DNA of 47,400 nucleotides from an uncultured Eubacteriales bacterium. GTDB lineage: Bacteria; Bacillota; Clostridia; Lachnospirales; Lachnospiraceae. A program made the translations under genes and the position numbers. The DNA lies in the NCBI GenBank assembly GCA_900314525.1, contig OMVN01000018.1, forward strand, positions 12,534-59,933, read 5' to 3'. Numbering within the stretch: position 1 is the first letter of the stretch; the number at the start of each line of letters is the position of its first letter. Below, one piece after another: positions 13,280 to 28,530 of the stretch. The notes below the pieces were generated by a model. That model was not told where the DNA came from and searched no databases. It saw nothing but the letters and a program-made list of their open reading frames with translations.

Positions 13280-13356
13280 TTCCTGCTCCTTTCCTATTCT
13301 AATCATAAAATTTGTTACTTTATTTTACTTTATTTTGTCAGATATTTAAAGGTATT

Positions 13357-13386
13357 TTGCATTTTTTTCCCAATTTTTAATAAAAT
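13357..13386 (+). promoter_or_regulatory. Promoter for HTH-like gene
   Basis: -35 TTGCAT (13357-13362), 18-bp spacer, -10 TAAAAT (13381-13386). A second -10-like TATTAT is at 13392-13397. It is divergent from lepA. Confidence 0.45.
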
Positions 13387-13439
13387 TATGGTATTATATT
13401 ATGGTGTATTTTGAAGTTTACTAGAAAGTGGTGGTTATT

Positions 13440-13964
13440 TTGTCTATTTTTAATTTTAAAACAAAGACAATTAACAAAAGATATGAAGAGCATTGTGAAG
13501 AAGCCCGCTCTTTTATTCAGGTTCATTATGTAAGAGAACGAGGCAGTGATAGATATGCATTCAATACACTTACAATAAAATCTGATCCTGAAAGAGAAAA
13601 GTGTGATGAATGGTATGAGTCCCATGGCAATCCCAATACGTTTCCTGAGATTGCATCAATATATCTAACAGATAAAAAGAAAAAGGATTCTGTTATATGC
13701 AAATCCTTTGGACTTGATTCAAAAATATTTTCTTCTGATAAGAAAGGAAATGTAGAGAAATGGGAGGCATTAGCCGTCTGTTTCGGTCTCAACTTAAACA
13801 TAGCTGAGTCAAGAAGATTACTCAAATCAGAGGGATATGCCCTCACAAATTCATCGATTTCAGACCTTGTAATTCGTTATTGTATTGAAAATACAATTTA
13901 CCAGTTGGCTGAAATTAACTATTTATTGCAAAAAATATGCAGCAGAAATCTTAACCAGCTGTAG
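13440..13964 (+). CDS. HTH-like regulatory domain protein, unknown function
   Basis: No named family for the full length. The C-terminal half (about residues 75-165) resembles an XRE-like fold common in Lachnospiraceae at the end of macro-domain and other regulatory proteins. In that fold, a segment like KSFGLDSKIFSS is followed by a helix of alternating Ala/Leu (EALAVCFGLNLNIAES), then LLKSEGYAL, then a terminal helix with EINYLL. The N-terminal 70 residues are charged and unassigned. The start is uncertain: TTG at 13440 has GGTGG 5 bp upstream; GTG codons at 13428 and 13431 are alternatives. It is one of three plus-strand genes, monocistronic, with its own terminator. Confidence 0.75.
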   Translation: MSIFNFKTKTINKRYEEHCEEARSFIQVHYVRERGSDRYAFNTLTIKSDPEREKCDEWYESHGNPNTFPEIASIYLTDKKKKDSVICKSFGLDSKIFSSDKKGNVEKWEALAVCFGLNLNIAESRRLLKSEGYALTNSSISDLVIRYCIENTIYQLAEINYLLQKICSRNLNQL

Positions 13965-13967
13965 AAG

Positions 13968-13995
13968 AACAGATGCGGTCGCATCTGTTTTTTTT
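13968..13995 (+). terminator. Strong intrinsic terminator of HTH-like gene
   Basis: AACAGATGCG (13968-13977) pairs with CGCATCTGTT (13980-13989), and eight T residues end at 13995. The hairpin starts one base after the stop codon. Confidence 0.92.
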
Positions 13996-14115
13996 GGGGG
14001 ACCGTTGTGAGAGCGCTGGTACTTAGCGATTGACTGCATTGCTGGCAGAGCTTAGTATCCACTGTCGCCCTCACCGAACGGGAGTGTGTACCCCGAAAGC
14101 ACGTCCGAATCGTTC
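13996..14115. ncRNA. Candidate structured RNA, family not recognised
   Basis: About 120 bp, close to 55-60 percent GC, in an AT-rich chromosome and with no reading frame. Nested pairings form one rod: 14002-14006/14077-14081, 14007-14011/14070-14074, 14013-14015/14066-14068, 14018-14019/14059-14060, 14020-14023/14054-14057, 14025-14027/14050-14052 and 14034-14037/14045-14048 with a 7-nt loop. Bulges and one U-U mismatch interrupt it. GGAC at 13999-14002 could close against GTCC at 14103-14106. A second hairpin (14076-14088/14100-14115) competes for 14077-14081. The strand is unclear: plus would need an unseen promoter after the 13995 terminator; minus would place it in the 3' end of the apeA transcript. 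It does not fit 5S, SRP, 6S, tmRNA or RNase P hallmarks known to me. Confidence 0.5.
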
Positions 14116-14117
14116 TT

Positions 14118-15494
14118 TTACTCCGAAATAAATGCCTCGTATGCCTTCAGTGCTTCATAAACATCGGCTTTACTTACAACTTCGTGTGGTGCATGCATAT
14201 TGAGTACCGCAACTCCGCTGTCTATTACATCCATTCCATATAATGCCATTATATATGCGATTGTTCCACCGCCCCCCTGGTCTACTTTTCCAAGTTCGGC
14301 AGTCTGAAATGCTACTTTGTGTTTATCAAATATTCTTCTTATTTCTCCAAGGTATTCTGCATTGGCATCATTTGAGCCAGACTTTCCTCTGCTTCCTGTA
14401 TATTTATTTATTACAATTCCTTTTGAAAAATATGCTGCGTTCTTTTTTTCGAATACTGATGCATATGTTGGATCAAATGCAGCACTTACATCTGATGATA
14501 GCATCTTTGAATTAGAAAGTACTCTTCTTAATTTCAAATCGCTGTATTCTCCCATTCTGTCTAACAATTCCGCAAGAATATTTTCAAAAAATTTAGATCT
14601 CATTCCAGTTGCTCCAACACTGCCTATCTCTTCCTTGTCAACTAACAGTGTACATGAAGTTGTTTCAACTTTATTTTTGTTTAACATTGCAGCTAATGAG
14701 GTATATGCGCATACTCTGTCATCCTGTCCATATGCTAAGATCATACTTCTATCAATTCCAGCTTCTCTTGCTCTGCCTGCAGGGACAACTTCAAGTTCCG
14801 CAGACATAAAATCTTCTTCTTCAAAATCATATTTTTCTTTTATTAATTTCAGGATATTCTTCTTAACTGCTTCCTTTTCTTCGTCCTTAACTGGAAGATT
14901 TCCTATAATTACATTAAGATCTTCTCCCTCTACTACTTTTGCACCCTTTTTCTCAAGCTGAGTCTGTGCAAGGTGTATTAATAAATCCGAAACAAATACA
15001 ACAGGGTCACTATCTTCTTCCCCTATAACTATATCAATAACGGAGCCATCTTTTTTTGCTATCACACCATGAATTGCCAGTGGAATTGTGACCCACTGAT
15101 ATTTTTTAATTCCACCGTAATAATGTGTATCAAGATATGCAATTTCTGTATCTTCATATAAAGGGTTTTGTTTTATATCAAGTCTTGGTGAATCGATATG
15201 TGCACCCAGAATATTCATACCATTCTCAATAGGATTCTTTCCGATATTGAAAAATACTACTGCTTTATCCATGTGTGAATAATATACTTTGTCACCTGTT
15301 TTTATTTTCTTATCCTTTTTTATGATTTCCTTTAAATCCTTGTACCCAGATTCTTTAGCAAGTTCTATTGCTCTCTTTACACATTCTCTCTCTGTCTTCC
15401 CCTTATCCAGAAAATCCATGTAATCTTTATTTAATACTTCAAGTTTTTCTAAATCTTTTTTTGTATATGTTTTCCACGCATTTGGTCGTTCCAT
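14118..15494 (-). CDS. apeA: M18 family aminopeptidase (ApeA type)
   Basis: Second M18 zinc aminopeptidase in the window, 458 residues, matching the clostridial aminopeptidase 1 type. H99 and D101 are in LGAHIDSPRLD. GQDDRVCAYTSL carries the bridging Asp, DKEEIGSVG the catalytic Glu pair and LNMHAPHE the last His ligand. KVDQGGGGTIAY is also typical. It is distinct from the shorter-loop paralogue at 6217-7563. The ribosome site GGAGG lies before the ATG, and a TATAAT -10-like hexamer is in the upstream gap. Its 3' flank is the GC-rich candidate RNA. Confidence 0.92.
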   Translation of the reverse strand: MERPNAWKTYTKKDLEKLEVLNKDYMDFLDKGKTERECVKRAIELAKESGYKDLKEIIKKDKKIKTGDKVYYSHMDKAVVFFNIGKNPIENGMNILGAHIDSPRLDIKQNPLYEDTEIAYLDTHYYGGIKKYQWVTIPLAIHGVIAKKDGSVIDIVIGEEDSDPVVFVSDLLIHLAQTQLEKKGAKVVEGEDLNVIIGNLPVKDEEKEAVKKNILKLIKEKYDFEEEDFMSAELEVVPAGRAREAGIDRSMILAYGQDDRVCAYTSLAAMLNKNKVETTSCTLLVDKEEIGSVGATGMRSKFFENILAELLDRMGEYSDLKLRRVLSNSKMLSSDVSAAFDPTYASVFEKKNAAYFSKGIVINKYTGSRGKSGSNDANAEYLGEIRRIFDKHKVAFQTAELGKVDQGGGGTIAYIMALYGMDVIDSGVAVLNMHAPHEVVSKADVYEALKAYEAFISE

Positions 15495-28458: not shown

Positions 28459-28530
28459 CTCCCCGAGCGGGGCTCGAACCTGCAACAACTCGGTTAACAG
28501 CCGAGTGCTCTACCATTGAGCTATCGAGGA
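28459..28530 (-). tRNA. tRNA-Asn (GUU anticodon)
   Basis: A full cloverleaf is seen on the minus strand: acceptor stem TCCTCGA with TCGGGGA (one U-G pair), D-arm with AATGGTAGAG, anticodon stem ACTCGG/CCGAGT around loop CTGTTAA, and T-arm with GGTTCGAGCC. CCA is not encoded after the G discriminator. It is a single tRNA with its own consensus promoter and terminator. Confidence 0.96.

Follow-up and report, generated by a model that had tools for sequence, protein, structure and literature searches.

A probable worn copy of a MITE-like repeat family of Lachnospiraceae with a conserved structured RNA core

Described small repeats and the island next to apeA

The described systems closest to the repeat family reported here are small dispersed repeats, among them miniature inverted-repeat transposable elements (MITEs), and insertion sequences that target hairpins. 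BOX elements of Streptococcus pneumoniae are, in the part of PMC3049150 consulted, small, dispersed and modular repeats with paired terminal repeats, a predicted stable RNA fold and variable inner units, the number of boxB units differing among elements, and are likely parasitic. The same part of that paper describes SPRITE, a terminator-like hairpin repeat made of an 18-bp duplex followed by a uridine-rich tract and enriched between convergent genes. NEMIS/Correia and ERIC, as presented in the consulted part of PMC2229807, are MITEs of ~100-200 bp with terminal repeats, 5′-TA termini, target duplications and transcripts with long stem-loops. Among IS1182-type insertion sequences, IS1272 targets stem-loops and is reported to do so without target duplications in the consulted part of PMC5678879.

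The present family shares general features with each of these, and differs in the following. BOX, to which it is likened by description and not by sequence, belongs to another host group; in the present family a covarying core with a GNRA hairpin is common to many genera of one bacterial family. The SPRITE duplex is followed by a uridine-rich tract, whereas the stem of the present repeats ends in a complex core. NEMIS/Correia and ERIC are described with long stem-loops in the consulted part of PMC2229807, whereas here a branched covarying core is kept across genera.

The island at 13996-14115 lies between the convergent HTH-like gene and apeA in the window, the whole 47.4-kb stretch of DNA that was analysed; coordinates of the features are given in Table 1. 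A sequence-only reading had described the island as GC-rich, free of reading frames and folding into a rod, and all three descriptions were confirmed. GC content was 0.575 (57.5%) against 0.341 (34.1%) for the whole window, and no other 120-nt window at 10-nt steps was as GC-high, the next highest reaching 0.55. When ORFs of at least 40 aa were counted, only short mechanical ones ran across the island, of 41 aa on the plus strand and 51 aa on the minus strand. Folding of the plus strand gave the rod (P2). The term 'structured' was also borne out, but the argument from the single-sequence fold was weak, with z values against dinucleotide shuffles of +0.23 for the plus strand and -0.95 for the minus strand; with z near 0, single-sequence folding was dropped as proof of structure. 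As for the limits of the island, the start at 13996 held, whereas the end at 14115 was too far downstream: the conserved core ends at 14094, and 14095-14117 falls outside the covariance-model match. The closing stem and the GNRA hairpin, both outside the rod, belong to the conserved core.

Table 1. Features of the core and its neighbours in the window
Feature	Position	Strand	Basis
Conserved structured core (99 nt)	13996..14094	+	R3 match; DNA match to three other own-genome loci
P1 closing stem, 5′ strand GGGGAC	13997..14002	+	pairs with 14088-14094
P1 closing stem, 3′ strand GTACCCC, one A bulged	14088..14094	+	pairs with 13997-14002
P2 rod: GTGAG/CTCAC base, TACTTAGC..GCTTAGTA segment with U.U mismatch, apical stem-loop	14007..14074	+	fold, covariation
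P3 mini-hairpin AC-GGGA-GU, GNRA tetraloop	14078..14085	+	loop counts over family
Simple terminator-like hairpin with T8, directly after HTH-like gene	13965..13992	+	inverted repeat I1; sequence
HTH-like upstream neighbour (context)	13428..13964	+	ORF; stop at 13964
M18 aminopeptidase apeA, convergent neighbour (context)	14118..15494	-	PF02127, E 1.3e-93; stop codon at 14118

The simple hairpin I1 abuts the core but is a separate feature, outside the conserved family. A terminator scan of 13300-14400 returned no site; the scan needs loops of 3-8 nt, and I1 has 2 nt between its arms. A promoter scan of the same interval gave 2 promoter-like sites, compared with 4.0 in shuffled sequences. The product of the HTH-like gene had no Pfam match at E 0.001.

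The island had also been said to match no known RNA family, and this agrees with the Rfam search, in which nothing reached the gathering score at the island (best E there 1.6). At 17 loci with other copies, no copy matched Rfam 15 at E ≤ 0.1. As candidates, IscB/TnpB guide RNAs and known ribozymes had no Rfam support and were rejected. The sole match in the window at the gathering score was a tRNA gene (28459-28530, minus strand). DNA searches with the island gave no match in phage and plasmid collections, and none at E 0.01 outside the own genome when 60 relatives were searched; only the covariance model, not the DNA search, reached relatives. No description of this repeat family was found in the literature searched, and the consulted parts of PMC8040213 and PMC10969869 contained nothing on it.

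Copies, intact units and an insertion sequence with the same ends

BLAST in the own genome detected three further partial copies besides the window copy, and a covariance model built from those four (R1) found 6 copies there. R1 also found 18, 5 and 2 copies in three of nine other same-genus species, and none at E 0.1 in the remaining six. Another model, R3, used 27 elements from five genomes that belong to other genera, the genomes being chosen for having matches and the elements for having facing terminal repeats. R3 gave a single match at E ≤ 1 in the window, exactly at 13996-14094 on the plus strand (30.7 bits, E 9.6e-6), and it finds all 6 own-genome copies. The window copy is therefore placed in the family by its match to a model from outside the genus.

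In a draw of 397 genomes of the family, model R2 had a match at E 1e-3 in 153, so that this repeat family, for which Rfam holds no model, is common. An order-wide draw gave a match in 47 of 344 genomes and a class-wide draw in 7 of 291 at E 1e-4; all 47 and all 7 were from the own or the same family, the family make-up of both draws being listed only in part. Copy numbers from these wide draws are lower bounds, as the best 10-14 candidates per genome were scored with stricter filters. Among the 80 matches listed from a pattern scan of named genomes, most were from Lachnospiraceae, including Butyrivibrio, Acetatifactor, Blautia, Roseburia, Lachnoclostridium and strain GAM79, whose complete genome contains at least one copy (L115); these names are the basis for taking the window's family to be Lachnospiraceae. 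A few titles among the matches listed name Muribaculum, Bacteroides or Gastranaerophilales; all belong to one MAG series and are probably mislabelled. Two IMG/VR contigs (L264 and L272) carry a core copy (E 3.7e-9).

The commonest intact unit observed is 207-212 bp long and consists of TAGGYAATTGCGAAACT, a spacer of ~18 nt, a self-complementary arm of ~25 bp and a core of ~92 nt (P1, P2 and P3), followed by the mirrored arm, spacer and terminal repeat, and 20 units of ~210 bp share this layout. More generally, another inverted repeat, in many cases TAGGYAATTGCGAAACT or a close variant of it, flanks the core of many copies at a distance of ~50-60 nt. Sites of TAGGYAATTGCGAAACT or near it numbered 7 to 63 in five of six genomes searched, with none in the sixth. 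When 31 facing terminal-repeat pairs at most ~300 bp apart were picked by hand from the pairs listed, without regard to the core, 27 of them enclosed one. Like MITEs, the units are short, dispersed and present in many copies, and have no transposase gene inside.

They also have target site duplications. Direct repeats of 9-13 bp abut the ends of 9 of the 20 units, one genome (G220) being the source of 11 of the 20, compared with 0 of 3789 mispaired controls having a direct repeat of at least 7. The other 11 units have no direct repeat above 3, which counts against a MITE-like family as the explanation. A clear signal of duplications came only from units selected for their ends: in an initial mixed set, those of at least 11 nt were found in 6 of 99 versus 0 of 489 mispaired controls, and those of at least 8 in 23 of 99 versus 36 of 489, some of them inside the arms.

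Likeness between genomes was 87-88% for the ends, 65% for the core, 57-60% for the arms and 36-45% for the spacers; ends and core are thus better kept than spacers. In one genome (G673), six copies at different loci have the same 92-nt core and nearly the same arms, as judged by eye. The units are modular. Those of 78-79 bp (L241 and L242) have the ends without the core, one of 120 bp (L236) has only ends and arms, and one of 136 bp (L235) has apparent P1 and P3 without the rod, whereas units of 259-263 bp (L237-L240 in G220, L254 in G204) have an extra nested hairpin branch and those of 293-300 bp (L243 and L244 in G366) have more nested branches. As units with ends and no core exist, the core seems to be unneeded for movement. 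In the longer units (L237-L240, L243, L244 and L254), the nested branches bear a similar CUUAG..CUUAG motif, an arrangement that looks like insertion of one core into another.

The core was also observed inside units with quite different outer repeats, namely CGTCAATTTGCACA (L080, L097 and L142), GAGGTCAAAAGTCACC (L098, L103 and L113) and TATACTTTATTGTT (L192-L203). The same core within different outer repeats suggests several transposon hosts. Although a MITE should need little beyond its ends, the inner RNA fold is conserved among genera and also within units with different ends, which makes it testable what use a selfish DNA element has for a conserved RNA.

No autonomous element was found in the first core-bearing loci. 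A scan of viral contigs for the terminal repeat revealed two contigs with the same ends ~1.8 kb apart around a transposase gene, and hence TAGGYAATTGCGAAACT is common to the small units and an autonomous insertion sequence (IS) of about 1.75-1.8 kb that encodes a DDE transposase of 485 or 507 aa. The best NCBIfam match of the transposase was IS1182 (NF033551), at 68.4 and 69.1 bits; because this is below the cut-off of 270, the transposase is called IS1182-like. Its PF05598 scores of 48.2 and 48.5 exceed the cut-off of 23.1. The likeness to IS1182-type elements is limited by this score (69 versus 270 bits) and by the duplications of 9-13 bp, which contrast with the lack of duplications reported for IS1272 in the consulted part of PMC5678879.

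Relatives of the transposase, some of them fragments, were present in 37 of the 397 genomes of the family, and facing ends (at most 4 of 17 positions mismatched) flanked the transposase gene in 14 of 22 loci. One genome (G390) contains one such IS locus together with six core-bearing units with the same ends. No core was detected beside the IS copies in 20 IS loci at E 0.1, and an own-genome IS locus gave one weak core match (11.8 bits, E 0.36). Across genomes, the core was present in 17 of the 37 with the transposase versus 136 of the 360 without it (tallied by hand), a weak co-occurrence that adds little.

In the own genome, five exact copies of one IS end and three one-mismatch copies of the other were found in a search that allowed 2 mismatches, its 8 matches standing against 5 for a backward control; one of the ends lies beside a transposase fragment of ~70% identity. 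These ends are on contigs C6, C14, C32, C44, C53, C58, C66 and C72, all near contig ends, which suggests that several IS copies broke the assembly.

Taken together, we consider it likely that the island is a worn copy of a MITE-like family of Lachnospiraceae that carries a conserved structured RNA module. To judge from the common ends and the duplications, the IS1182-like transposase would recognise the ends and act in trans to move the small units, and other transposases would serve lineages whose terminal repeats differ.

Conserved structure of the core

In an alignment of 31 copies, changes on both sides were found in 32 of 35 pairs and 85.9% of cells were paired. The covariation score was 0.389, compared with 0.167 for shuffled alignments and no more than 0.088 when partners were slid; fitting of the alignment to the model favours structure, and the aligned copies from one genome are related. 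P2 had changes on both sides in 23 of 26 pairs, with 92.4% of cells paired. Of the helices, P1 aligned least well, with 60.8% of cells paired and both sides changed in 7 of 7 pairs; inspection by eye shows copies displaced by one position, which explains part of the low pairing. Alignments A2 to A5 were fitted to models and lean towards structure. The strong covariation and the match to the model built outside the genus uphold the claim that the island is a structured RNA. They also carry a caution for RNA discovery, since a mobile element, and not just a resident RNA gene, can show covariation.

Conservation in the core extends to GGUACUUAG and the CUUA(n)GUACC opposite it, which include a U.U mismatch, to a YU bulge in the 3′ strand and to P3. 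When the own-genome copies were compared side by side, the P3 stem varied and the loop stayed GNRA. Across the family, the loop was GNRA in 85 of 89 matches outside the pattern-scan loci and GNYA in none of the 89. This count leaves out L067-L186, which were found by a pattern fixing part of the core and are therefore invariant there by construction, and the remaining copies were found with models that include P3. Of the four other rows, one was AGGA, two were opposite-strand partial matches at loci that had been counted before, and one was a nested unit whose loop is empty.

Template switching in quasi-palindromes keeps arms complementary, and the structure could in principle be kept at the DNA level, through movement or repair as a single-stranded hairpin with no RNA function. 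The arms are indeed self-complementary, although their sequence varies among copies. With the arms included, the fold of either strand is far better than that of shuffles: with outer stems, the other three own-genome copies had z values from -7.2 to -8.7 for the GNRA strand and from -6.7 to -7.4 for its complement, though such strong values of arm-bearing copies would come from any long inverted repeat. In core pairs that are mostly Watson-Crick, G.U and A.C were balanced (35 v 30 and 29 v 21), and in the outer region the balance was reversed (G.U 24 v A.C 40, p 0.06), which also fits a DNA palindrome. The near-constant GNRA loop, on the other hand, points to RNA, as do the differences between arms, which were of the G.U type in 97 cases versus 51 of the A.C type (p 2e-4), or 62 versus 34 when each arm cluster was represented by a single copy (p 0.006). 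In two pair columns wobble pairs are frequent or in the majority, and these two make up most of the excess of 102 v 18 and 101 v 9 among pairs flanked by Watson-Crick pairs. On this evidence a purely DNA-level palindrome appears unlikely, and RNA-level selection on the core is likely, though short of proof; it would act on the plus-strand RNA.

Placement of the copies and what the core may do

The sequence-only reading had proposed a structured RNA gene residing between the HTH-like gene and apeA. A stationary RNA gene or cis-regulatory element (small RNA, leader or 3′ UTR element) serving one of these genes would be consistent with the strong conserved structure and with the position of the core, which begins 31 nt after the HTH-like stop codon and ends 23 nt from that of apeA. 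The distribution of the element argues against it. Of 30 apeA loci searched with R2, only that of the own genome contained the element. Among the ten same-genus loci, the HTH-like gene is near apeA in the own genome and four of the nine other species; three relatives with the same close gene pair (L208, L210 and L214) are without the element, and in a fourth (L209), with a spacer of ~400 nt, it was also not found. By eye, each of the spacers of L208, L210 and L214 contains an inverted repeat, followed in L210 and L214 by a T-rich tail. As relatives with the gene pair lack the element, the window copy is either an insertion in this lineage or was lost elsewhere.

Over the family, 149 of 191 matches had enough flank for orientation to be scored; 12 of these were inside ORFs of at least 100 aa and 15 had no neighbour within 600 nt. 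The 122 that could be classed, which include two opposite-strand duplicates and several copies from one genome, comprised 43 sense, 41 antisense, 22 convergent and 16 divergent placements. Sense and antisense are thus equal, orientation of the copies to genes is random, and no placement or orientation to a gene is conserved as in a cis-regulatory element. The claim of a resident gene is therefore left with its structure and its lack of a known family, while residence at this spot fails on the relatives without the element, the random orientation and the transposon-like intact copies. The stationary reading is largely refuted, and we regard it as very improbable.

No terminal repeats and no target duplication were found at the window copy (L011), so that it is a core-bearing relic, not an intact MITE, and its own insertion history is one that we infer. 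The own-genome copies in general keep the core without terminal repeats.

Five of the six own-genome copies lie between convergent genes, an arrangement recalling SPRITE as described in the consulted part of PMC3049150, where such repeats are enriched at convergent sites. These copies may act as, or shelter within, bidirectional terminators, the core then occupying the loop of a terminator stem. By eye, A and T tracts border several arms. The consulted part of PMC5678879 reports that IS1272 replaces inverted-repeat targets and that some IS1182 members target palindromes; an IS1182-type aim at stem-loops would fit copies in terminator stems and hairpins nested in hairpins, and is possibly how such copies arose. 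Weighing against this are the number of copies, six only, and the argument, made in the consulted part of PMC3049150, that tolerance alone may explain why repeats accumulate at convergent sites. In addition, the arms are gone from the window copy, and the HTH-like gene already has a separate hairpin downstream. Conversion of the own-genome copies into terminators is thus a tentative reading, possible but not favoured, and is compatible with a MITE-like origin of the family.

Under the favoured MITE-like origin, our best guess at the role of the RNA module is that it makes insertions tolerable at the transcript level, as a stable insulating hairpin, with no particular neighbour being regulated; as an alternative guess, the core may have a function in trans. 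A further and rather doubtful version would have a transposon-borne RNA domain outlive its transposons, one module occurring with different terminal repeats across Lachnospiraceae, growing by nested branches and being selected as an RNA that acts in trans, e.g. by binding a protein of the host or of the transposon and so promoting or controlling movement. The models could be used to annotate many intergenic hairpins.

At five loci (L036, L137, L169, L170 and L176), pairs of copies were observed in opposite orientation a few hundred bases apart, perhaps as nested or preferred-target insertions.
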